Virus record (IMG/VR): IMGVR_UViG_3300046167_000966
Location: 1-36,656 of that record
Strand: one strand, 5' to 3'
Length of the DNA stretch: 36,656 nucleotides
Source of the DNA: a virus
This document shows, piece after piece, positions 1,903 through 36,187 of this stretch. The position numbers were made by a program, and so were the translations under genes. The notes under the pieces are model-generated. The model searched no databases and had not been told where the DNA came from. It saw nothing but the letters and a program-made list of their open reading frames with translations. Each line of letters opens with the position of its first letter. Position 1 is the stretch's first letter.

Positions 1903-3720
1903 CTAGTATCGTTGTTTTAAATTATTAAGTACATTCGGACTTAAAGTATTCAAGCCGAACATTGAGTTATAGTTATTAATAGGTCTACCGTTTCCTAACG
2001 GGTCTTCCATCATAGTCCTATATCGTTGTGCTTCTGCTGCCACTTGCGCTTGCAAATCATCTACAGCTAGTAAGTCTATCCAGTTACCTACGCTACCAGC
2101 TACCGCATCAAGCCTATCGTCATGTGACAGACTACCTCGGTCCCTGGTTACTTTAGCAAGCTGGTGAAAGAAACTATACGAAGCTCGGTTTACAGCAGAG
2201 TACTTCTGCACAGAAGCCCAGTCATCCTGGATAAGGTCTAGCTCTACAACCAATCTACCTGAACCTATAACAGGCTCTAGCTTATCAATTATACGTAGTT
2301 CCTTCTGCCCTGTTTCCCAGGGGTCATCTATCTCTACACCAGCATTTACTTCCTTCATAGCCTTGTATAAAGTCGGTTCCCATACTTTTTGCAAAGCACC
2401 ATTACCGTAGTTACGTTCTATGGATATCTTATTAGGTTTCCATTTAACAGCTACTCTAGTTAGTTCTTCTAAGTCAGAAGCTTCTAGTCCTCCAGGTACA
2501 CCGCCTACAGCTACCAGGTAAACCTTATTACCTAAGAACCTAGTTACAGCATAGCCTGTCTCATCTCCGTTCTGTCCACCACCAGCAGGGTCAACATACA
2601 TATGTGTACCTGTGAACTCCCCGTACTCAGTACCAAAGTCAGAGCACATATACATAGGGTCTCTAATAGGATAGTCACTTGGAGTCGGTACTCTGTTATG
2701 TATAGACGGTTGGTGGTTAAGAAGTATAGGACTTCTACCTTTATTTATATTCATAAAGATTAATTTATTTAGTTTCAAGGGATACCTAGCTTCGTCTGCA
2801 AGTCTAGTATCTAGCATATGCTGCAGCTGGAAGTAAGCAGCTCCCTGGTCAATCTCTTTCTTAACTAGGATATCTTCTCCTAGTATAACACTATCTGTTG
2901 GCTTACCTCTGTTACCTAGTAGACCAGCACCTGTTGCCAGTGACGGGTCTTTCTTAACTGCCTCTGATATCATAGGAGCTAAGTGTTCTCCGTAGTTATC
3001 TAATTCTCTTTCTGTAGGATATCTACCAGGCCATATACGTATATCAAAGCCACGTCCAGGTAAAGCATTATATATACTGTCTACACTCTGTGGTGTACCT
3101 AGATATATAATATCTCCCTGTGAACATATAGAAGTAAAGTCCCTAGTTAAGTTCGTAAGCTTCATCCTAGCATCTGCAGTCAAAGCATTCTTAGCACTCT
3201 CGATATCATCTGCAATAAGTACGTCAGCACGTTTACCTTGCAGGTTAGATGTAATACCCACACACGCTACACTAGGAGACTTCTCAGGTCCCTTTAGTAC
3301 ATAGTGTATATCATATGCAGTAACAGATGCTCGGTCTCCTGCAGACTTATCTGGCAGCATACAGGACAGCTCTTCCATACCATTTAGTATCTGGATAATC
3401 CAATTACTAATCTCCTTAGCCATTGTATCACCAGCAGATATAATAAGTATCCTAGCTGTCGGGTTATGTATTAGTCTCCATACAGCATACGCAGCAGTAG
3501 CCGTGGTCTTAGCCTGGCCACGCTGCGCCTGTATCATTCTATATAACGGACCGTACTGTAAGTAGTTCGCCATATCTAATTGATTATTAGTACAGTTAAA
3601 TCCCATAAGGTTAACCATTACGTCATATAAGAAGTCTTGAAAGTTAGGGTAAGCCTCCTGAATAATAAGCAGCTCTTTAATACGGTCTGCTTTATTCATT
3701 TCCCTAGCATCACGCCCCAT
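1903..3720 (-). CDS. terL: Terminase large subunit, T7 gp19-like (605 aa)
   Basis: This is the ATP-driven DNA packaging motor and headful or concatemer-cutting nuclease. The N-terminal ATPase has a Walker A-type loop AQRGQAKTT (Lys71), a Walker B stretch ADVLIADDIE (Asp171-Asp172) and the coupling-type segment IIYLGTPQ around 205. The C-terminal RNase H-like nuclease starts with MYVDPAGGG (Asp377) and has a late acidic DDRLDAVAG motif. Length fits T7 gp19-like terminases. It begins 1 bp after the terS stop. ATG at 3718-3720 is taken; a second in-frame ATG seven codons later is possible, because neither has an ideal Shine-Dalgarno. The motor docks on the portal encoded at 21165-22748. Confidence 0.95.
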   Translation of the reverse strand: MGRDAREMNKADRIKELLIIQEAYPNFQDFLYDVMVNLMGFNCTNNQLDMANYLQYGPLYRMIQAQRGQAKTTATAAYAVWRLIHNPTARILIISAGDTMAKEISNWIIQILNGMEELSCMLPDKSAGDRASVTAYDIHYVLKGPEKSPSVACVGITSNLQGKRADVLIADDIESAKNALTADARMKLTNLTRDFTSICSQGDIIYLGTPQSVDSIYNALPGRGFDIRIWPGRYPTERELDNYGEHLAPMISEAVKKDPSLATGAGLLGNRGKPTDSVILGEDILVKKEIDQGAAYFQLQHMLDTRLADEARYPLKLNKLIFMNINKGRSPILLNHQPSIHNRVPTPSDYPIRDPMYMCSDFGTEYGEFTGTHMYVDPAGGGQNGDETGYAVTRFLGNKVYLVAVGGVPGGLEASDLEELTRVAVKWKPNKISIERNYGNGALQKVWEPTLYKAMKEVNAGVEIDDPWETGQKELRIIDKLEPVIGSGRLVVELDLIQDDWASVQKYSAVNRASYSFFHQLAKVTRDRGSLSHDDRLDAVAGSVGNWIDLLAVDDLQAQVAAEAQRYRTMMEDPLGNGRPINNYNSMFGLNTLSPNVLNNLKQRY

Positions 3721-3721
3721 C

Positions 3722-4072
3722 TTATTGAGTACCTGTCAAAGGTAAAGATGTTACGTTAGAAAAGTCTGGTCTATTAGCTTTCTTATTTCTTAGTCTTTGT
3801 TCAAGTTCACTTAACTCATCTATCTGTTCAGAATCATAACTTATGTTATTATCTTTTAAGAACTTAGCTATAGCAGATAACATAGCTGGACTAGGTTCTA
3901 TACTTAGGTATTCTAGTTCACCCATTATCTCTGAGTTAAATTCATCTGAGTTAAATGCTTCTTGAGCTTTATCTAGTTTATCTAAGTAACCCTGTAACAC
4001 TCTAGTAAATATTGTTGTAAGTGTTGAATGTAAGTTACCAAGATTCTTTTCTGTTGCAGCTCCTTTTGCCAT
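3722..4072 (-). CDS. terS: Terminase small subunit (116 aa)
   Basis: This is the probable DNA-recognition subunit that loads phage DNA on the large terminase. It is a small, helical and mostly acidic protein placed directly upstream of terL, as T7 gene 18 is upstream of gene 19. Conserved features for this type are the stretch SPAMLSAIAKFLKDNNI (residues about 61-77), which resembles the helix-turn-helix or oligomerisation helices of T7-like small terminases, and the polar C-terminal tail. ATG follows a good AAGGAG site. Identification rests on both this segment and position. Confidence 0.85.
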   Translation of the reverse strand: MAKGAATEKNLGNLHSTLTTIFTRVLQGYLDKLDKAQEAFNSDEFNSEIMGELEYLSIEPSPAMLSAIAKFLKDNNISYDSEQIDELSELEQRLRNKKANRPDFSNVTSLPLTGTQ

Positions 4073-8331: not shown

Positions 8332-11300
8332 TTAATTTAGTTTATAGTATTCTTTCATGCCTTCGTAATCATCAATAGCATTACCTATATTAATACGCCC
8401 GTTATCACTATATACCTCACCTAAATTTTTCATAGATTCCATATAATTTATATTTGAAGAAATACTTGAATCATCTGCACCAGTATTTCGTGTACCAAAA
8501 GAATTAAATATAGTTCCTAAACCAATTAGATTTGTAAAAGGAAGAGTTCTCATTGAAGCCATATCATTGTAATTTGCATTTCCTGTAACAAAATTTACAA
8601 AGCTTCCTGGGAGCCTATAAGCATTCTCCAACATTTTAATAGCTGGAGGAGTAAGTCCTGCTTGGTCTGTATACTTATTAAAACGCATTTCATCTATACC
8701 AAGTAAAGTTCCTATAGGGTCTGCTACTAAAGGAACCCACCCTAACATATTAGAGTATGCTATACCTCTAGCAACATGTTCAGAGGTAGGACGTTCTTTT
8801 CCAGTAAGAGCATCTTTCATATAAGATACTGCCATAGCTGTACCTAGTGTATATAGTACTCCTGTTAAAGCTTCCATATCTCTGTGCTTCAAGTGTCGTA
8901 TAGCTTGCTTACTAAACGCTTGCATAGGGAATGTAATAAGGTGAGTCATTAAACCACCTGCTTTAGTAAATATAAAAGGGTCTTGTTCACCTATCATAGA
9001 TTTTTGTACTGATTGGTTAACAGACCTAATCATGCTTGGAGCAAACTCTTCTCTTAGCTCAGGAGTCCAATCTTTTAAATTAAGCTCGTCTACAAATTGA
9101 TTTCCAAAAGCAGATTTTCTCATTTTAACAGTACCATTTTTTAATAGTCCTGCATACTTAGTTAACATTACATCATCAACACCAAAGTCATCTAGTATTC
9201 TGGCACGTTGTTTTTTACTAAGTTTTAATGTGCCATCTTTCTGCATAGCTTTGTTTATTTGTCTAAACAATTTATCAGACGCACCTAAAGCAGCAGTTGT
9301 TTGTTGCCAACCTCTTACATGGTTAAACCCAGATAAGAAAGACTGTATGTAAGAAAGATTACCGCCGTACTCTTGTATTTTATTTTTAACAAATCCAGCT
9401 TCTTGAGGATTTAATTCATCTAACATTAAATGCGGAGCCATAAACTCATGCTCTTTACCTAACTTACCTGTTATCCAAGACATCTCTTCTAAAAGCTGTT
9501 TTCTGTTTTCTCGTAAAGCTTTATCAAATAAAGGTTTAATACCTCTTTGAAAGAAAGAAGCCATACCGTACTGAGTCAAAATAGCACCAGTTTCAATTAA
9601 CTGTGTTTGTCCTAGTGCATCTAGCCAAGCAATATTAGTCATGCGTTTCATAGCTGATACATAAAAACCCTGGTCTTCTAGTACATCTCCTGTAAGTGTA
9701 GATACACCTTTGACAGAGCCACCATCAAAAGCAGAAAACATTGCCCTTAATTCATTTTCTGTAACGTCATTTATACCTAATCTTTTTTGGTCTGCCATAG
9801 CAGCAGCTATAAAAGCATTTCTATCTGCAGTATTTCTTATACCATATCTAGCTAGTGCTGAAGCACCTGCAGTTTTTCTAGCATACTGTTGTGTAGTTTT
9901 ATACATATCATTATCTATTAAATCTACTATTTGTATTTTACTTCCATTAGGTAAAGAAATCTCTGCAGATAAATCTAAATCATTGCGCTTTTTAGCAAAA
10001 GATATTTTACTTTTTTCTGTAAGACCTTCTCCTAAAGTTTTCATTAAGCCTTGAATACCTTCATCACTCATATCTGTAAGTTCTCTTAAGGTTCTTTCTA
10101 GATTTTCTCTACCATCACCTGTTAGTAATGCACGTACAGACATATCCATAGATGTACCATCAGCGTTATCTAAAGACCGTTTTACTACTGCTTTAGCTAT
10201 AGCCATAGATACTACATCATCAAAATTAGGATTCATAAATTTATAGTTATTAGCAAGCCCTTTTTCTATTGCTTGTCTTGTAAGTTTTTTATCAGCAGAA
10301 GATTTTATAATTTTAGCTATGTTAGAGTTCCAAAGCATAGGTTGATAATGTTCCCTATAACTAGTATTTCTATTTTGAAAACCATCAACAGCGTTCTTTT
10401 CAGGATTTAAACCTTTAGCATTTAGTATATCAAAAGCTTCATCATACATAGCATCTAATTTATCAGCTAAACTTTTAACAGCAGGGTTATTAGTTGTTTC
10501 TTTACCTAAAGCCCTAGCATTGCGTTCTAACATTACTTCACGCATCATGGCTAGTTTAGTATCACGGCTAACTATATTAGGTTTTTTATTATTAAAATCT
10601 CCTTTAAGTCTAGCGTATTCTTTAAAGTCATCTCCAGAACCATCTAACTTAGAGGCTATTCTATTATGAAGTACAGGTTCTAAAGATGCAGCAGTGTTTC
10701 CAATCCTAGCGTATCCTGTAGGACTTTCTATTATCATGCTACCAAACATATTAAGAACAGTAGATTTACTTTTGTATACCGCCCCTGATATTCTGGAACC
10801 CATAAACATCATGTATTTACTGTTAGCTAGTTTAGATACCCAATCATCCCATTCTTCTCGTCTTTCTTTATACCCTACTCCTTTTGCCCATGCCTCTGAC
10901 TCTTCTATAATCTCAGCACTTTTTCCAGATATAGGTCTTCCTAAGTCGTCAATCATAGGAGTAGAAGGTTCTACTGTACCTGGTGTTAAATCTTTATCAG
11001 GTATTAAACCTTGAGAAGGTGTTTCAGAAGAATCCGTTTTAGCTAGTAATTTTTCATCACCTCTAAGTAAAGCTTCAGTATACTCATCTCCAAGGCTAAT
11101 GTATTGTGGTCGCATGAAATTACCTAGTACGCCTGTACCTGCTCCCATTATACCACCTGTTAAAGCACCTAATGTAGTAAATATTACAGCTTCATCAAAG
11201 CCACTTCCTTCTGTAGATATTGCATCTACTCCTCCTAATAATGCACCTGCAGCTGCACCTGATTTTACTCCTGTACTTACACTGTTAAGTAGATAAGCTT

Positions 11301-11937
11301 TTTTAGTCGCTGTAGTAGATAAAGTTTTAGCGCCCATAGCTGTATACTTTGCTGCACCAAATCCAAAAGGTATTAATGCTGCGTCTAAATCTACTAATTG
11401 TCCTGCTAATCGAGTAAGGTGATAACCACGTTGTCTTTGTATAGAATCTTCTAATCTAAGTCTGTTTAATACGCGCTCTTTAGAACGAACTGCTGCAGAT
11501 AAACTACCTGACTCTAATATAGATTCATGATATCTTTCAGGAATATTAGCTGTTAAACTCTCAATATGTTCAGCTATAATAAAATCAGGGTCGTTTCCTT
11601 CCGCAGTTCTACCAAAAATAGTGTCTACTATAGTAGCTAAACTTTCTGCTCCATAACCAAAACCTTTTATTACAGCTGCTATTGGTTCAGTTATACCTTC
11701 AAACTCATCACCTTTTTGTGCTATAAAACTAGTAGCAAATTCTTGTGATTTTTTTTCTATAAAGTTAAGACCTTTGTCTTTTCTAAATTGTCTAACACCT
11801 GCCTGTTCATCTCTAAGCCTGTCCATTACATTAGAGCCAACAGTTAAGTCCATGCCCATCTTAAAGTTTTCTTTAAAACCTTTTTGATTTTCTATATCTT
11901 CTAGGATTAACTCTGTTAATCTTCCTGGGGTTGCCAT
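8332..11937 (-). CDS. Internal virion protein, T7 gp16-like (1201 aa)
   Basis: This is the large ejection protein expected to leave the capsid first and form a channel across the cell envelope for DNA entry. Order (third of three internal proteins before the fibre) and size match T7 gp16 (about 1300 aa). The C-terminal third carries the recognisable segment THLITFPMQAFSKQAIRHLK followed by hydrophobic stretches (YTLGTAMAVSYMKDAL, NMLGWVPLVADPIGTLLG) seen in gp16-type proteins. Near residues 207-270 there are glycine/alanine-rich hydrophobic segments. I see no lytic transglycosylase signature (no catalytic ES plus GLMQ-type motif) at the N-terminus, unlike T7 gp16. ATG follows AAAGGAGG. Confidence 0.85.
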   Translation of the reverse strand: MATPGRLTELILEDIENQKGFKENFKMGMDLTVGSNVMDRLRDEQAGVRQFRKDKGLNFIEKKSQEFATSFIAQKGDEFEGITEPIAAVIKGFGYGAESLATIVDTIFGRTAEGNDPDFIIAEHIESLTANIPERYHESILESGSLSAAVRSKERVLNRLRLEDSIQRQRGYHLTRLAGQLVDLDAALIPFGFGAAKYTAMGAKTLSTTATKKAYLLNSVSTGVKSGAAAGALLGGVDAISTEGSGFDEAVIFTTLGALTGGIMGAGTGVLGNFMRPQYISLGDEYTEALLRGDEKLLAKTDSSETPSQGLIPDKDLTPGTVEPSTPMIDDLGRPISGKSAEIIEESEAWAKGVGYKERREEWDDWVSKLANSKYMMFMGSRISGAVYKSKSTVLNMFGSMIIESPTGYARIGNTAASLEPVLHNRIASKLDGSGDDFKEYARLKGDFNNKKPNIVSRDTKLAMMREVMLERNARALGKETTNNPAVKSLADKLDAMYDEAFDILNAKGLNPEKNAVDGFQNRNTSYREHYQPMLWNSNIAKIIKSSADKKLTRQAIEKGLANNYKFMNPNFDDVVSMAIAKAVVKRSLDNADGTSMDMSVRALLTGDGRENLERTLRELTDMSDEGIQGLMKTLGEGLTEKSKISFAKKRNDLDLSAEISLPNGSKIQIVDLIDNDMYKTTQQYARKTAGASALARYGIRNTADRNAFIAAAMADQKRLGINDVTENELRAMFSAFDGGSVKGVSTLTGDVLEDQGFYVSAMKRMTNIAWLDALGQTQLIETGAILTQYGMASFFQRGIKPLFDKALRENRKQLLEEMSWITGKLGKEHEFMAPHLMLDELNPQEAGFVKNKIQEYGGNLSYIQSFLSGFNHVRGWQQTTAALGASDKLFRQINKAMQKDGTLKLSKKQRARILDDFGVDDVMLTKYAGLLKNGTVKMRKSAFGNQFVDELNLKDWTPELREEFAPSMIRSVNQSVQKSMIGEQDPFIFTKAGGLMTHLITFPMQAFSKQAIRHLKHRDMEALTGVLYTLGTAMAVSYMKDALTGKERPTSEHVARGIAYSNMLGWVPLVADPIGTLLGIDEMRFNKYTDQAGLTPPAIKMLENAYRLPGSFVNFVTGNANYNDMASMRTLPFTNLIGLGTIFNSFGTRNTGADDSSISSNINYMESMKNLGEVYSDNGRINIGNAIDDYEGMKEYYKLN

Positions 11938-23821: not shown

Positions 23822-26284
23822 TTAATTAAAGAAGTAGTCTGAGTTAAGTACCTCCGTTATATCCAAGCTTCCTCTATTAGGTAAACTCGGTAATTCTACG
23901 TCATAAACGTCTTCATGTTGCTGTTTAAAGTCTTGTAGTACGTCGTTGTAGTTATGCAGTGCTACAAACTGCTGCCTTATATTCTTCTGTAGGTCTGCTG
24001 CATACTTAGCTGGTACACCAAAGTCATCATGTATCATAGCGAAGTTAGATACTCCGTTACCTGAACACGCATTGACAACCATCATCATATGACAAGCATC
24101 CACATGATGTACTAGGTTAGGACTACTGCCCTGACGCTGCTTCCTAGTATCTAACTGGTCTGTGTAAGTAGCTACTCTTACTTGTAAGTTACCATTGATT
24201 TGTGTACGTATCTGTTTAGACTTGTACTTCTGTGTAGCTTGTAGTACAGGGAATCCTAATGGACTGTAGTACTTCAATGGTATATTCTTCCTAGCAAGTA
24301 TAACGCTGCACTCTTGTATCCAATCCATAGCTGCCCTAGCTGCTATAACTACCTCGTTTATAGAGGCCCATAGCAATGGGTTAAGGTATATAGAATGTTT
24401 AAAGAATGTATTCTTATCGAACTTATCTGAAAGATTGTCAGTCACGTAGTTGTATATACTAGTAGTACATGCCTGTTGAGTTGACCCATAAGGCAGGGTC
24501 ATTACAGGTTTCTTAGGTAGCTTACGTGACATACCTCCTGGACCTAGAGCCTTTAGCCAGTTGATAGCAGGAGCCTCTCCTAGCTTTGCTCGGTCTAATA
24601 GTTTAGCGTAACACACGTTAGCTACGTCCTGATATATATCAGCAGGTAAAGTGTTAGGGGATAGGTTAACTGACTTACCACCTACTTCATCTGATAGCAT
24701 AGCAGAGAAGTGTTGTAGTCCATTGCAGCTACCATCTAGTGCTACAGGTAAGTGAGATACGAACTCATAAGGGTTACTCAACTTAAACATATCAGCACAT
24801 TCAAATACCCAAGCAAGGAACTGGAAAGGCTTGTCTGAGTTAGCCCAGAAACCTCTGTTACTTATAGGGTCATTAGCGCATTCTATAATGAAGTCTTTGT
24901 TATCTTGTACCCAAGCAACTCTATCTTCATAGCTTACCTTATCATTACCGTACTTGTTAGCACCGTTTATCATGAACCAGCGTAGCCCATTCTCATCAGT
25001 CAAGGCATCGCCTGTACTGAACTCAATCAAAGCTTTACTGTGGTCAGTACCCTGCGGAGTTAACCCAGCACTAGCTGCGTATACTCTACCACGGAAGTCA
25101 CACTGGTATACATACCAGAAGTTATCATGCTTCTCCATCTCTCTAGCTAGTCTCATAGTACGTATGAGGGCTAGGTTCTTGGCTACTCGTTCTTTCTCTT
25201 GGGTATGCAGCTCTCTAGTAACTACTTTCCATTCATTGAACATAGCAAGCTCAGGGCTATCGTAAGGTAGCTCAGATGCTATCTGGTGCTCCTCTAGGGG
25301 ACAAGGTGGGAATACATAAGGCTCAGAGCGTGGCATACCACAGCCCAAGTTCTTAGCCCATACCTCATCTAACACAGCCTTAACTCTAGTGTTAATTCTC
25401 CAAGCAGTTGCTTGCATTGTGTTAACTGCATTCAATACTCCAGGCATATCTGCCTCAGCATACATAATCTCTCGCTCTTTACTCATAAGCTTAGACTTAA
25501 TCAAAGGCGTTCTCTTACGTAGGTTAGGAGACCAGAAGCCTCCATCTGTTACCGATATCCAATTAGCTGGTGGTATTATGCAAGGCATTCTATCTGGACT
25601 AGTTAGCTCTACTACCTCATCATGATTAGATATCCAATCTAAACATGCTTGAGTAGGCACTAACATAGATTGTCCCTTCATGTAGCCTTTACTAGCAGGG
25701 GCATCATTGCGCTCTACTAAGTCACACACTTCCATGAGCAAAGATATAACCAGAGCACCAACACCAAAGGCATCTTGCTCTGACCAACTCTCCCACAGTA
25801 ATCCTCTGTCCTTACCTTTAGCAGTAAGTACAGTTCTCTTGTGCCTGTAGTTAGCTATGTTCTTACGCTGCATGTCTCGTATAAGACTATCGTAGTATTC
25901 TTTGTACTCTGTTTGAAACTTGGTTAAGCGCAGCTCGTCCTCACACTGCCTACCTATCTGAATAGATATGCTTGCTATACCTGTACCATTCTTAAACACG
26001 GATGCTATAACATTCCTTAAGGCTATCATAGCAACCTTATCTGTATCTATTGTGTCCAGTAACTTACTGAACTTGTTCCTACGTCTACCTTCAGGGTGCT
26101 TGCCCTCTAAGTAAAGAGCAATTCTATCTGATATAGTTATGACGTAGGACTTGAGAAGTCTGCTGCCAGCAGAAGTCTCGTGTCCTCTAGACTCAGTAGC
26201 TTCAGCTTGCTGCTTGCGGAATCTTTCGACTCCGCGAGTAGCCATGTTGTGCTCCCAGTCTAGTTGCTCTCCTATGGTTTTCAT
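23822..26284 (-). CDS. DNA-dependent RNA polymerase, T7-like single subunit (820 aa)
   Basis: This enzyme transcribes phage genes from its own promoters. Key T7 residues are all recognisable: DFRGRVY (residues 396-402), the first catalytic aspartate Asp517 in ALDGSCNGLQHFSAML, Lys591 and Tyr599 in KKPVMTLPYG (T7 Lys631, Tyr639), and the second catalytic aspartate Asp753 in MIHDDFG (T7 Asp812). Length is slightly under T7 (883 aa), with a shorter N-terminal promoter-binding part. The gene shares one base with endonuclease VII and is followed at once by a phage promoter. Its place after the replication genes is the phiKMV arrangement. The host polymerase must transcribe up to this point first (inference). 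Confidence 0.97.
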   Translation of the reverse strand: MKTIGEQLDWEHNMATRGVERFRKQQAEATESRGHETSAGSRLLKSYVITISDRIALYLEGKHPEGRRRNKFSKLLDTIDTDKVAMIALRNVIASVFKNGTGIASISIQIGRQCEDELRLTKFQTEYKEYYDSLIRDMQRKNIANYRHKRTVLTAKGKDRGLLWESWSEQDAFGVGALVISLLMEVCDLVERNDAPASKGYMKGQSMLVPTQACLDWISNHDEVVELTSPDRMPCIIPPANWISVTDGGFWSPNLRKRTPLIKSKLMSKEREIMYAEADMPGVLNAVNTMQATAWRINTRVKAVLDEVWAKNLGCGMPRSEPYVFPPCPLEEHQIASELPYDSPELAMFNEWKVVTRELHTQEKERVAKNLALIRTMRLAREMEKHDNFWYVYQCDFRGRVYAASAGLTPQGTDHSKALIEFSTGDALTDENGLRWFMINGANKYGNDKVSYEDRVAWVQDNKDFIIECANDPISNRGFWANSDKPFQFLAWVFECADMFKLSNPYEFVSHLPVALDGSCNGLQHFSAMLSDEVGGKSVNLSPNTLPADIYQDVANVCYAKLLDRAKLGEAPAINWLKALGPGGMSRKLPKKPVMTLPYGSTQQACTTSIYNYVTDNLSDKFDKNTFFKHSIYLNPLLWASINEVVIAARAAMDWIQECSVILARKNIPLKYYSPLGFPVLQATQKYKSKQIRTQINGNLQVRVATYTDQLDTRKQRQGSSPNLVHHVDACHMMMVVNACSGNGVSNFAMIHDDFGVPAKYAADLQKNIRQQFVALHNYNDVLQDFKQQHEDVYDVELPSLPNRGSLDITEVLNSDYFFN

Positions 26285-28586: not shown

Positions 28587-28606
28587 TCTCTATAGAGAAG
28601 CATTAA
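28587..28606 (-). promoter_or_regulatory. Phage RNA polymerase promoter before SSB gene
   Basis: The minus strand reads TTAATGCTTCTCTATAGAGA, differing at one base from the late promoter at 23801-23820. The predicted start is G 28590, 52 bases before the SSB ATG. The stop codon of the DNA polymerase gene lies inside the promoter. Confidence 0.8.
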
Positions 28607-30837
28607 GCTTCTAAGTGATGTAGGTCTAACATATTCCTACCCATCTCTACATCCACAGGGAATGGGACAGGACAGTCTATGTTAAAATGTTTCTTTAGAT
28701 AAGTTGGTACTCCTTCCATAATAATTTTAGCAGTCTTTAAGACTTCTTCTGCGACTGACGCATCCATGTCGAACCATACACAGTCATGCACTGTGTTAAC
28801 TAGGAATGCTTTACCATCCCAGTTATCTTTCTTCATGAAGTAACGCCATAGTTTACCTAGTACTAGCTGTACTATCTCACCCCCTGTGCCTTGAACAGGA
28901 TAGTTCTTAAGCTCAGGTGGACTGAACGTGTCTATGATACCACGCTTCTTGAGAAAGGATGGTGCATCATATGTTCTCCATGAGTACATTGTACCCGTGG
29001 GTGACTGCCACTCGCCTCTCCTGAATGCTCGGTATCCCATGAGGGGGTCTCTGAATCCCTCAGCAGTTGCAGTAACTGTACGCTCTACCTCAGCATTGAA
29101 ACTGATAACGCCTGGGTAGAGTTTATTCTCTGCCTCTATCAACTCTTCTACATCCTGAATGGACATACCTGTTGATAGTGCAATGGTACTAGCCCCTGCG
29201 CCATAGGTACGTTGGAAACTAAACTCCTTAGCACCTTGTCTGCGTGGCTGCCATGTCTTGTAGTTCGGGTCAGTCTCATCCTTACACCACTTCACAGCAT
29301 CCTTGTAGTCTATATTAAACTTAGCGGATACACGCTTGCAGTGAAAGTCTACACGGTTAATCAAGTCAGAGACTAGCTGCTTGTCATTAGTAAGCAGCCC
29401 TTGGACTACAACTTCTAGTTGGGAGTAATCTATCTCGCCAACCATACCGTCCTTGAATCTGGATACGAACATAGCTTTGACACGCGAAGGTGACTTCGGT
29501 ATGTTCTGACAGTTAGGATTAGAACTAGATAGTCTGCTTGTTACTGTAGTAGTATGGTTAAGCATGTGGTGTAGGACATTATCCTCAGGACTTACGCAAG
29601 TCAGCATACCTTTCATGATACCATTACCATCCACAGTCACGTAGTAAGTACCTATCTCCTTGTCTAATCTAATCTTCTCAGCTAACGCTTTAAGGAAGGG
29701 TACGTCTGAGTTACCTAACATAATCATTGTCTCTGAATCAGTTGAGTAAAGTACATTACCCCTGCCATCAGTGTTCTTAGTTTTCTCAGCACCCACCTCA
29801 GTAGGGTTAACATATCCTGGCAAGTCATAGTATCTATCTTGTAGCTTAGTCTTTAGCTCTCCCTTCACAGCTACATTCTTGAACCTAAGCTTGCCCTTGT
29901 TCTTGCCTGACAGAAATACATCTTGTGTTTGTGTACCTAGCAGCTCTGGTTTTACAGGGACTGCATTAACTAGGGGCCACTTCTCTGTAGCCTTGAGTCT
30001 TGCTAGTTTACCTGTCTTCTCGTCTAAGTAGGTATCACGTACACGGTAGCGTATTGAACCACCATATATTATGGCAGACTTACATACGGTAGAGGACCAC
30101 TTGAATCCTACTTCCTCAGGTATATCTGCTATGTATTTACTCAGGTCTTTCTTGGCAGCTTTCAGTTGGTCATTGAGAAGTGATAAGTCTTTCTTGGCTG
30201 TGGTAGTACATACCTTAAGCCCATTGTATTCCATCTCAGTTGTTGCTGCAAGTCCATCCATACGTAATCGTAATGATTCTGTCATGCCTAGTGTCTGGGC
30301 AGATTTAAGTTGCCCAAGGTATATTAGTTCCGTGTTGCCTATGTCGCCTGAGTTCCTGCCCTCAGCCTCAGTACCAATCAAATAATCTTTGACTAGCTCT
30401 GGGTCAATGTCTGCGGTCTGTACTCCTGATTGCCACAAGGCTTTCATTCCATCTATTTTCTTTCTACCTCCATAAGTTTCTACAATACTATCCATAGAAT
30501 TCATGTGATACTGTCGCTGCATAGCATTCAATAAGTACTCAGCGTACTGCGTACACCATATACTACCACCACGTTTATAGAAATCACGTAGGTAAGGGTT
30601 GCCAGCTTGCATCTCGTAAAGTAAATCGAACTTAATGTTGTGTCCTACTAGTACAGTTACATCATCGTCAATCACTAACCAGTTATCCTGGGAAGGTTTG
30701 TAGAACTGCACAGAGTTCTGTGCATCTCCTTCTTTCTTCCATCCCCTAGCTACTACGTAGTTCTCAGGTATGAAAGGATTAGCAGTACGCTTATACTTCT
30801 TATGTATCTGGGTCTCACTATCGAACACTAAGTACAT
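28603..30837 (-). CDS. DNA polymerase I family, T7 gp5-like (744 aa)
   Basis: This is the replicative polymerase with proofreading. The N-terminal 3'-5' exonuclease has Asp6 and Glu8 in FDSETQ and GHNIKFD (Asn67, Asp71). The polymerase domain has motif A GEIDYSQLE (Asp470), motif B RRQGAKEFSFQRTYG (Lys537, Phe541, Tyr545), and motif C VHDCVWFD (His684, Asp685). Length is near T7 gp5 (704 aa). Position 541, equivalent to T7 Tyr526 and E. coli Phe762, is phenylalanine. T7 uses host thioredoxin as clamp; whether this protein has such a loop cannot be told by eye. It starts next to the 70-aa gene and ends in a promoter. Confidence 0.97.
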   Translation of the reverse strand: MYLVFDSETQIHKKYKRTANPFIPENYVVARGWKKEGDAQNSVQFYKPSQDNWLVIDDDVTVLVGHNIKFDLLYEMQAGNPYLRDFYKRGGSIWCTQYAEYLLNAMQRQYHMNSMDSIVETYGGRKKIDGMKALWQSGVQTADIDPELVKDYLIGTEAEGRNSGDIGNTELIYLGQLKSAQTLGMTESLRLRMDGLAATTEMEYNGLKVCTTTAKKDLSLLNDQLKAAKKDLSKYIADIPEEVGFKWSSTVCKSAIIYGGSIRYRVRDTYLDEKTGKLARLKATEKWPLVNAVPVKPELLGTQTQDVFLSGKNKGKLRFKNVAVKGELKTKLQDRYYDLPGYVNPTEVGAEKTKNTDGRGNVLYSTDSETMIMLGNSDVPFLKALAEKIRLDKEIGTYYVTVDGNGIMKGMLTCVSPEDNVLHHMLNHTTTVTSRLSSSNPNCQNIPKSPSRVKAMFVSRFKDGMVGEIDYSQLEVVVQGLLTNDKQLVSDLINRVDFHCKRVSAKFNIDYKDAVKWCKDETDPNYKTWQPRRQGAKEFSFQRTYGAGASTIALSTGMSIQDVEELIEAENKLYPGVISFNAEVERTVTATAEGFRDPLMGYRAFRRGEWQSPTGTMYSWRTYDAPSFLKKRGIIDTFSPPELKNYPVQGTGGEIVQLVLGKLWRYFMKKDNWDGKAFLVNTVHDCVWFDMDASVAEEVLKTAKIIMEGVPTYLKKHFNIDCPVPFPVDVEMGRNMLDLHHLEA

Positions 30838-33542: not shown

Positions 33543-34052
33543 TTACTCCGTTAATACAGACCGCATGACACATTCTACAGCATGCCTTAGGTCGTTTAAG
33601 TCTCCGTTGTTATGTATTACTATATCGTGGTCCCCAGGCCCAATGTCAAGCCAAGGCTCTAAATTTTCTTCACCTAACCTTCCTGTAGCATCTACCCAGA
33701 TAGTTAAATCAAACAATTCCTTTACCTTTTCGAACTCAGAACGTCTACGTATACCTACACGTAAGTCTCCACCTGTTAGGCACTCAACAGTAAGCTTATC
33801 AGGACCAAAGTTTCTCACGTACTCGTACCACCACTCTCTACGCTTAACTCTATCCAGATAACACATCATTATTTGGTCTTCTAAGCAACCATAGCCATAG
33901 TAATTCTTTGGTAACGCATGCAGCACGATATCTCTGGCTACAATCATAGATGCATCTTTCTTTCTAAAGTTATAGCTTGTTAAGATATCTGCTACGGCAT
34001 CTTTTCCATGCCTAGCGTAACCATTAATCATTATTTTCATTCTATCATCCAT
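33543..34052 (-). CDS. Deoxynucleoside monophosphate kinase (169 aa)
   Basis: This kinase phosphorylates dNMPs, recycling nucleotides from degraded host DNA into precursors for phage synthesis. The P-loop is GYARHGKDAVAD (residues 11-22), in the degenerate GxxxxGKD form of the phage T4 gp1-like kinase family. IRRRSEFEK (residues 101-109) and the later FDLTIWVDA strand also fit this family's LID and substrate regions. Its start overlaps the nrdB end by eight bases, grouping it with nucleotide metabolism. Confidence 0.85.
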   Translation of the reverse strand: MDDRMKIMINGYARHGKDAVADILTSYNFRKKDASMIVARDIVLHALPKNYYGYGCLEDQIMMCYLDRVKRREWWYEYVRNFGPDKLTVECLTGGDLRVGIRRRSEFEKVKELFDLTIWVDATGRLGEENLEPWLDIGPGDHDIVIHNNGDLNDLRHAVECVMRSVLTE

Positions 34053-35007
34053 TTACACTCTCCCAATCCCAGTCACCTGACATACCAGCAGTAGAATATT
34101 CCGTCACACGTTTCTCAAAGAAATTATCATGTGATGCACCATTCAGTATCCACTCTAGCCAAGGCAAGGGGTTGTCTTTCACTTTAAAGTTAGGTTTCAT
34201 TCCTAGTTGCAGCAGCCTCCTATCTGCTATGTGTCTTATGTACTGCTTAACATCCTTTTCAGTTAGTCCTTCCATGTCTAGCCCGTTAAAGGCTAACTCA
34301 ATAAACTTATCCTCCAGAGACACCACGTCCCTAGCTATTTGATACACTTTAGACTTCAGCTCATCTGTTACAATCTTAGGATGCTCTGAACAGAACTCCC
34401 TGAACAATTTTGCATTACCTTGTACGTGCAAATTCTCATCTCGTATTGACCACTCAACAATAGTACCCATACCCTTCATCTTACCAAAGCGTTGGAAGTT
34501 AAGTAGCATCACAAAGGACGCGAACACAGACAGGCCCTCATTGAACACAGACTTAGCTAATGCAAGGGCAGTACCTTGAAAAGTATTACTAGTCTTGTCA
34601 CTCATGAATGCTATCTTGTCAGCCATCTCAGTATACTCAAGGAACTTATGAAAGTCCTCATCTGGTAGACCTAACGTATCGTTCAGTAGAGCGTAGGCTC
34701 TCTGATGGATAGCTTCTCTAGCTGCGAATGAGGATAGCATATTCCTAGCCTCATTATTCTTGAACACAGGGATGAGCATCTCATGATAGTTCTGTCCTAC
34801 CTGTACGTCAGCCTGTGTAAACATCCGCAGCACCTGTGTGATAAAAGTTTTCTCCTCTTGGGTCAGCTTAGTCTTCCAGTCTTGGATGTCCTCAGATAAT
34901 TCTGCCTCATCCTCAATCCAGTGTACCTCTTCATGTTTTTTTGATAGCTCTACTGCCCAAGGGTACTTGAAAGGCTTGTAGGCTTTACTGTAGTCTAATA
35001 ATGACAT
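34045..35007 (-). CDS. nrdB: Ribonucleotide reductase class I beta subunit NrdB (320 aa)
   Basis: This subunit holds the di-iron centre and tyrosyl radical that starts ribonucleotide reduction. All metal ligands are seen: Asp67 (TQADVQVG), Glu98 and His101 (REAIHQRAY), Glu157 (FNEGLSVF), Glu191 and His194 (RDENLHV), and the radical tyrosine is Tyr105. The C-terminal peptide (AGMSGDWDWESVNG) is the tail that binds NrdA. Length is slightly under E. coli NrdB (376 aa). A hairpin separates it from nrdA; ATG has GGAG at a good distance. Confidence 0.96.
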   Translation of the reverse strand: MSLLDYSKAYKPFKYPWAVELSKKHEEVHWIEDEAELSEDIQDWKTKLTQEEKTFITQVLRMFTQADVQVGQNYHEMLIPVFKNNEARNMLSSFAAREAIHQRAYALLNDTLGLPDEDFHKFLEYTEMADKIAFMSDKTSNTFQGTALALAKSVFNEGLSVFASFVMLLNFQRFGKMKGMGTIVEWSIRDENLHVQGNAKLFREFCSEHPKIVTDELKSKVYQIARDVVSLEDKFIELAFNGLDMEGLTEKDVKQYIRHIADRRLLQLGMKPNFKVKDNPLPWLEWILNGASHDNFFEKRVTEYSTAGMSGDWDWESVNG

Positions 35008-35052: not shown

Positions 35053-35072
35053 ATGAGTACAGACGTACTCAT
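35053..35072 (-). promoter_or_regulatory. Perfect hairpin at nrdA end
   Basis: An 8-bp perfect inverted repeat (ATGAGTAC, loop GTCT on the minus strand, GTACTCAT) contains the nrdA stop codon and lies 45 bases upstream of the nrdB start. The bases that follow on the minus strand are A-rich, not U-rich, so it is not a standard terminator; it may limit decay or separate the two messages. Confidence 0.55.
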
Positions 35073-36187
35073 CCTTCACACGCTAGGCATTCCTCATCTT
35101 CAGTTTCCATCAGTTGAGCGTATCCTCCTATGTATTGTCCATCTATGTATATCTGGGGTACTGTATAAACATCCCTGCCTGTTACTTCACTAGCAGTTTT
35201 ATTAATATCCGTTAGGGATATGTATTCGTAATCAATGTTTCTGAATGTAAGTTCCTCCTTAGCTAATTGACAGTATGGGCAATCATCCTTACCATATATA
35301 ATACTCCTGTTATCAGATTTCAAGGCTACCCTCTCAACTTTCTCAGATACATTCTCTGCTCTGGACGTTGACTCTGTGCGTAGGTAGTACAATCCCTTGA
35401 GACCACTCTTCCAAGCTTTTAGATGTGTCTTGCTAACGTAGCTCTTACTAGCACCAGAGGGAAAGAATAGATTAACAGACTGGCCCTGACATATATAAGG
35501 TTGTCTATCAGCCGCATGTTTAATTACCCAGTTCTGGTTAAGTTCATCTGCTGTTTTGAATACAGCTTTCTCACCTTCTTTCAGGAAAGGTAGATGCTGC
35601 ACTGAACCTTTGTTAGTTATGATTGAGGTCCATGTTGCATCATTGTTTTCGCCACGCTTATCCAGAATCTTACTAAGATATTCATTCTTCACCAAGAAAG
35701 AACCTGCCCGTGTCCTATGCGTATACGCATTAGCCTTGAGAGGCTCAATAGACGGGGAAGTAGAAAGTATTATACCTGATGAAGCGTTAGGGGCTATAGC
35801 TAGTAGGTGGGAGTTACGTCTACCCGTACCCTTGCCATCTAAGTACTCACCGCGCTCGTCTGCAAGCTTCCTTGTCTGTTGCAAGGCCCTTGCTTTTATT
35901 GTCATAAAGACTGCCTTGTTTATATCTCTGGCCGCCTCACTCTCCCAAGGTACACCACTCTTTTGTAAAAGGCTGTGGAATCCCATAGCACCTAGTCCAA
36001 GAGAGCGTTCTTGTTTCGCCGAAAAGATTGCCTTGCTCAGTGCAGGCGGCGCTTGGTTTATGAAGTAGGTCAGAATGTTATCTAGCATAGTAATTAAATC
36101 CTCTACTATAGGCGTATCTTTCCACTCATCATAGAACTCTAAGTTAAGTGAGGATATTGGGGGTGTTTTTATTGTGTTTACGGCCAT
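35069..36187 (-). CDS. nrdA: Ribonucleotide reductase alpha subunit NrdA, 5'-truncated, with internal glutaredoxin domain
   Basis: This is the C-terminal half of a class Ia large subunit, which reduces ribonucleotides. The family match starts at ISSLNLEFYDEW, directly after the position of E. coli Cys462, so active-site Cys225, Asn437, Cys439, Glu441 and Cys462 are lost. Retained are GLGAMGFHSLLQ, the radical-transfer tyrosines 267-268 (LKGLYY) and the redox tail C367LAC370. Between these, residues about 293-362 form a glutaredoxin domain (CPYC 303-306, TVPQIYIDGQYIGGY). The first ten residues (MAVNTIKTPP) are antisense of terC and not native, so the ATG at 36185-36187 is artificial. As present here the fragment cannot be an active reductase. 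Confidence 0.93.
   Translation of the reverse strand: MAVNTIKTPPISSLNLEFYDEWKDTPIVEDLITMLDNILTYFINQAPPALSKAIFSAKQERSLGLGAMGFHSLLQKSGVPWESEAARDINKAVFMTIKARALQQTRKLADERGEYLDGKGTGRRNSHLLAIAPNASSGIILSTSPSIEPLKANAYTHRTRAGSFLVKNEYLSKILDKRGENNDATWTSIITNKGSVQHLPFLKEGEKAVFKTADELNQNWVIKHAADRQPYICQGQSVNLFFPSGASKSYVSKTHLKAWKSGLKGLYYLRTESTSRAENVSEKVERVALKSDNRSIIYGKDDCPYCQLAKEELTFRNIDYEYISLTDINKTASEVTGRDVYTVPQIYIDGQYIGGYAQLMETEDEECLACEG
36155..36161. other. Phage-bacterial junction
   Basis: NrdA homology on the minus strand ends at about 36157, and TerC homology on the plus strand (GGVFIVFTAMKEI) begins at about 36159. Both genes are cut inside conserved regions, within a few bases of each other, at a short G run. 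No att-like repeat, tRNA or integrase is visible. Confidence 0.85.

Follow-up and report, generated by a model that had tools for sequence, protein, structure and literature searches.

A glutaredoxin domain inserted in the C-terminal redox arm of a phage ribonucleotide reductase NrdA and its probable role as tethered reductant

The turnover of ribonucleotide reductase (RNR) depends on an external redoxin, and the phage locus described here raises the question of whether the large subunit, NrdA, may carry such a redoxin within its own C-terminal arm. The window, meaning the whole stretch of DNA analysed, comprises the 36,656 nucleotides of the IMG/VR virus record IMGVR_UViG_3300046167_000966; an ORF on its minus strand (35069-36187) encodes a 372-aa NrdA fragment in which the LYY that ends the barrel (residues 266-268) is followed by a glutaredoxin (Grx) domain at approximately residues 294-363, with CPYC at 303-306, TVP at 342-344 and GGY at 354-356, and then by the CLAC redox tail at 367-370 (Table 1). 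The LYY presumably corresponds to the radical-transfer tyrosines Y730/Y731 of E. coli NrdA, and a linker of 34 residues separates it from the first Cys of the Grx. The segment 35069-35330, to which the original prediction drew attention, begins within the final residues of the linker and, read along the gene, continues through Grx and tail to the stop codon.

Table 1. Features at the nrdA-nrdB end of the window, with strand and supporting evidence
Feature	Position	Strand	Evidence
Phage nrdA, 3' part (end of barrel, linker, inserted Grx, redox tail, stop codon)	35069..36156	-	Pfam PF02867 and PF00462; L005 homology
LYY, barrel end	35384..35392	-	invariant across NrdA alignments
Barrel-Grx linker, predicted disordered, holds recombination breakpoint	35309..35383	-	AlphaFold (L005) and identity switch
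Inserted glutaredoxin domain	35099..35308	-	PF00462; AlphaFold and Foldseek; E. coli Grx3 1fov profile match
CPYC dithiol active site of Grx	35270..35281	-	sequence; both Cys invariant, 65 fused homologues
TVP (cis-proline) motif of Grx	35156..35164	-	sequence; V-P nearly or fully invariant
GGY motif, Grx glutathione groove	35120..35128	-	sequence; both Gly invariant
CLAC redox tail of NrdA	35078..35089	-	CxxC kept in 85/85 complete fused homologues; same motif ends unfused NrdAs
nrdB, radical-generating subunit, without Grx domain	34045..35007	-	PF00268 E 2.2e-73
TerC-family membrane protein gene, truncated; host-like sequence joined to the phage contig	36157..36656	+	PF03741 E 5.5e-19

A Pfam search of the 372-aa ORF places a Glutaredoxin domain at residues 297-353 (PF00462, 44.9 bits against a cut-off of 22.9 bits, E 1.3e-11) beside the RNR barrel (PF02867, E 9.6e-56); both matches lie far beyond chance and bear out the original prediction of a complete CPYC/TVP/GGY glutaredoxin between the barrel end and the CLAC tail. 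AlphaFold modeling of the NrdA of a sister contig, L005, with 59 homologues gives a mean pLDDT of 83.8, and 84-90 over the Grx domain; the predicted Grx fold of the CPYC segment is thus upheld, as the domain stands confidently between a disordered linker (568-587, pLDDT <50) and a disordered tail (659-668). The C-terminal 97 residues of the window protein, folded alone, reach pLDDT 83-89 over the domain core. Foldseek returns 84 PDB matches at E<=0.001, and the 50 matches listed are glutaredoxins or Grx-domain proteins.

By profile the best solved relative of the domain is E. coli Grx3 (1fov, E 1.3e-14), which has the same CPYC, TVP and GGY; Grx3 is a stand-alone protein, whereas the window Grx is flanked by NrdA barrel, linker and redox tail. 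The NrdH-redoxin 1h75 matches much more weakly (E 1.8e-5), and an identity as NrdH-redoxin was rejected on this comparison. The conserved columns include the cis-Pro of TVP, the GG motif and a Lys at position -3 from the first Cys, as expected of a dithiol Grx; a CPxC active site is present in all 85 complete fused NrdAs, and the two Grx cysteines and the two tail cysteines are invariant among 65 fused homologues. The window allele has Ala directly after GGY, a position that is acidic in most relatives. From sequence and model, the inserted domain is classed as a Grx3/GrxC-type dithiol glutaredoxin, and glutathione-dependent disulfide reduction is its predicted activity.

The window copy of nrdA is cut short at the contig end. 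Phage DNA homology to the sister contigs stops at base 36156, and all relatives align only from residue 11 of the window ORF onward; residues 1-10 are therefore not phage. The segment beyond the junction is exactly 500 bp, with a TerC frame open right from the junction and a GC content of 0.336 against 0.397 in the phage part, and TerC sequence is absent at the corresponding place in L005 and L002. The join at 36156/36157 most probably stems from a chimera formed in assembly or library preparation, and with host-like TerC DNA behind it the window lacks the 5' part of nrdA. L005, which is 97% identical to the window over 4 kb and 100% identical across most of the nrdA 3' part, carries a complete uninterrupted 668-aa nrdA where the window has the join.

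The L005 NrdA has PF02867 and PF00317, the cysteines C107, C290 and C305/306, LYY at 562-564 and tail cysteines C663/C666; on its barrel, active-site Cys, LYY and C-terminal CxxC it is assigned to the class I RNR large subunits, and the window protein lacks the first three of these Cys positions because it is truncated. No ATP cone was found in the L005 NrdA. The original prediction had placed the enzyme in class Ia, which the sequence does not support: the fused NrdA is assigned to NCBIfam NF006577 and scores far below the cut-off of the class 1a model NF006578, and the most similar alpha folds among solved structures belong to class Id (~34% identity), the metal subclass not being readable from this sequence. 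The best NCBIfam score of the window NrdB is to NF009398, a Grx-NrdB fusion family, below the cut-off of that model; the match covers profile positions 92-405 only, and since it starts at position 92 the N-terminal Grx part is absent from the window NrdB.

The internal placement of the Grx had been thought unusual, an expectation overturned by at least 85 phage NrdAs with exactly the same order, several named phages included. The 85 complete fused proteins, and six S-TIM5-like contigs in addition, share the order barrel-linker-Grx-CxxC tail; the complete fused form occurs in at least 81 IMG/VR contigs among L002-L100, a lower bound given that the second IMG/VR scan covered the best 80 of 577 relatives. 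Named phages with a fused NrdA are C48C1 (69% identical to the window protein), Delftia phage PhiW-14, Acinetobacter phages nACB2 and SH-Ab 15599, the S-TIM5 group and S-CBWM1; they have the domain order of the window, but their proteins are mostly annotated as plain large subunit. The fused NrdA family is widespread, with members in many marine phages, and largely unremarked. Three peptide patterns run against 84,980 bacterial and archaeal genomes, a search too narrow to show absence from bacteria, returned one locus; it lies on a contig of phage-like character from a Sphingobacteriales MAG (L183), where a 247-aa ORF (3309-4052) separates the fused nrdA from nrdB.

Across the 85 complete fused proteins the distance from LYY to CPxC is 27-41 residues (median 34), and that from GGY to the tail Cys is 9-39 (median 18); the window value for the latter, 10, is among the shortest. 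In unfused relatives the linker runs directly into the tail, as in KVERKALKEHKPTEDDECLACHA of L009, whereas in fused NrdAs ~70-90 residues of Grx and spacer stand between linker and tail. This comparison identifies the Grx as an insertion within the NrdA tail arm. The nrdA genes of nACB2 and SH-Ab 15599, both Grx-fused, are ~200 residues longer than those of relatives, the extra length in nACB2 being an intein-like insert after SNLC; the nrdA of S-CBWM1, also Grx-fused, has an annotated intein.

A PF00462 search found exactly one Grx in each of 30 fused records, eight of them >100 kb, and in every case it lies inside the long nrdA frame. Among 14 unfused records the Grx is at the NrdB N-terminus in five, at the NrdB C-terminus in two and in a separate small ORF in four, so that 11 have exactly one above the cut-off and none has two; one further record has a sub-threshold PF00462 match, better read as thioredoxin, and the same search found no Grx in the remaining two. 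The contrast between fused and unfused records has a Fisher p of 5e-8, which overstates the evidence as kinship is uncorrected; many of the records compared are also fragments. Methylophilales phage Melnitz and its relatives (Grx-NrdB), and Citromicrobium phage RXM and Vibrio phage qdvp001 (NrdB-Grx), have related RNRs and, like the window, one Grx per genome joined to RNR; their Grx is on NrdB, N-terminal in Melnitz and C-terminal in RXM and qdvp001, rather than on NrdA. In Shewanella phage 1/40 (L176, 1792-3716) a separate Grx gene shares 10 bp with the end of nrdA, so that a fusion would be one step away. The four alternative places for a single Grx (its own gene, either terminus of NrdB, or the NrdA tail) suggest strong selection to keep a Grx with the phage RNR.

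On a tree of the NrdA core the fused proteins fall in three groups: group 1 with the window, group 2 with PhiW-14, nACB2 and SH-Ab 15599, and group 3 with S-TIM5 and S-CBWM1, whose core is distant from that of the window and whose Grx lacks the KTAAEVTGR motif. A single clade of all fused NrdAs is rejected on this tree (p-AU 9.2e-5), meaning that the arrangement arose or was lost repeatedly; groups 1 and 2 as one core clade are not rejected (p-AU 0.317). The Grx tree, built on 70 columns only, joins the Grxs of groups 1 and 2 with moderate support (92/91) and places those of group 3 and the NrdB N-terminal Grxs elsewhere; one clade for the Grxs of all three groups is borderline by AU test (p 0.055). 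As judged from these trees, the pattern requires either two or more independent gains or a single old gain with several losses. The idea that the NrdB N-terminal Grx shifted locally over the border between nrdB and nrdA is unsupported, since on the same 70 columns this Grx forms a clade separate from the NrdA Grx (100/99); the Grx thus looks replaced, not moved.

The domain has also been exchanged between phages. It occurs in two alleles, CPYC with a spacer of 10 residues (window and L003) and CPWC with one of 17 (L002), recombined onto two NrdA core alleles in the otherwise very similar phages L002, L003 and L005. The window and L005 share 91-98% DNA identity with L002 in the core, 61-68% in the Grx and mostly >92% in nrdB; with L003 the values are 56-84% in the core, 95-99% in the Grx and mostly >90% downstream. 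Synonymous divergence follows the same pattern, dS being 1.46 in the core and 0.13 in the Grx for L005-L003, and 0.31 and 1.43 for L005-L002, so that the identity switches do not stem from selection on the protein. The two switch points fall within or next to the linker (around 35310-35380 of the window), so that at least two exchanges had the linker as border; near-identical phages have thus recombined at a breakpoint in the linker and traded the Grx segment.

It is proposed, with a probability of roughly 80%, that the Grx3-type domain in the C-terminal arm of NrdA serves as a tethered reductant of the tail; the proposal draws on sequence, structural models and analogy. After each turnover the tail CxxC would reduce the active-site disulfide and itself become oxidised; the oxidised tail would be reduced by the CPYC pair of the tethered Grx, and the Grx in turn by host glutathione. 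The insertion would replace a separately encoded or NrdB-borne Grx. We infer the electron flow, glutathione as donor and the choice of client, which may be the subunit's own tail or that of its partner; even if the enzyme were self-regenerating with glutathione, as the original prediction suggested, the cycle would still require host glutathione reductase and NADPH. Median dN/dS over unsaturated pairs is ~0.15 for the Grx, 0.08 for the core and ~0.10 for the tail, indicating purifying selection on Grx and tail; together with the Grx fused to NrdB in Facklamia ignava, an efficient reductant of its RNR as described in PMC6187632, this makes a tethered reductant the best reading. The built-in reductant beside the tail that the original prediction put forward is accordingly still the best explanation, as a deduction from these lines of evidence. 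Against it stand the spacer of the window allele, where the tail Cys would have only the 10 residues after GGY for reaching into the active site or back to the Grx, the Ala after GGY in that allele, and the thioredoxin-like protein that S-TIM5 carries, as do three of the four relatives tested among the contigs. In its favour, the window phage and most group-1 relatives showed no thioredoxin. A bolder version is tentative: the tail may be a self-contained two-step redox arm, served by the Grx in cis or by that of the partner, free of host thioredoxin and diffusible Grx, and exchanged between phages as a cassette that tunes the enzyme to host redox conditions.

The short spacer of the window allele would also fit a route in which the active site receives its electrons from the Grx itself, leaving the terminal CxxC as a relic, and glutaredoxins can reduce many disulfides; this is very unlikely, as the tail cysteines are invariant in 85/85 fused proteins from three groups, the tail is under strong purifying selection, and the RNR active site is buried where a globular Grx should not reach. 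Somewhat less improbable, though still unlikely, is that the Grx serves other phage or host clients and that co-expression or dosage is the sole reason for its fusion to NrdA. As the sole Grx in the fused phage records it must take on every phage Grx task; its placement nevertheless tracks RNR, being in relatives on NrdB or in a small gene that in phage 1/40 overlaps the nrdA end, and dosage alone explains poorly an insertion inside the tail arm instead of at the very end. An assembly artefact, a frameshift or a chance fusion of two genes has next to no probability: the window contig does hold a chimeric join, but it lies ~850 bp from the Grx, and the single-ORF fusion recurs in more than 80 independent contigs and in finished phage genomes. 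The complete homologues refute a frameshift or assembly fusion, L005 encoding Grx and NrdA in one intact ORF as foreseen, and the fused nrdA being an intact single ORF throughout L002-L006.

Fusions of a Grx to each of the RNR components are known, grx::nrdA being reported for two viruses (PMC6187632); the placement of the Grx inside the tail is not discussed in the passages of that paper on fusions, and our guess is that the two viruses are PhiW-14 and S-TIM5. The Grx-ATP cone-NrdB of F. ignava and the Grx-NrdB of Francisella, as presented in those passages, resemble the window in joining a GrxC-like domain to a class I RNR; their Grx is at the NrdB N-terminus, followed in F. ignava by the ATP cone, whereas in the window it lies inside the NrdA redox arm. 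Searches for Grx terms in three phage RNR surveys (PMC3653736, PMC6370689, PMC12918982) retrieved no description of a tail-arm Grx, and the passages retrieved from PMC6370689 mention Grx trimming for the beta subunit only. As far as the openly searchable literature shows, the distribution and exchange results are provisionally considered new. In annotation and phylogeny of marine phage RNR, NrdA should be trimmed as well as NrdB. A Grx in the tail arm also offers a natural single-chain system in which to study re-reduction of the tail without a diffusion step, and raises the question of whether the tail is served in cis or in trans.

The rest of the window encodes a single-subunit RNA polymerase (phrog_414) and a family A DNA polymerase on the minus strand (23822-26284 and 28603-30837) and a phrog_342 internal virion protein (8332-11937), which is a T7-like podovirus layout.
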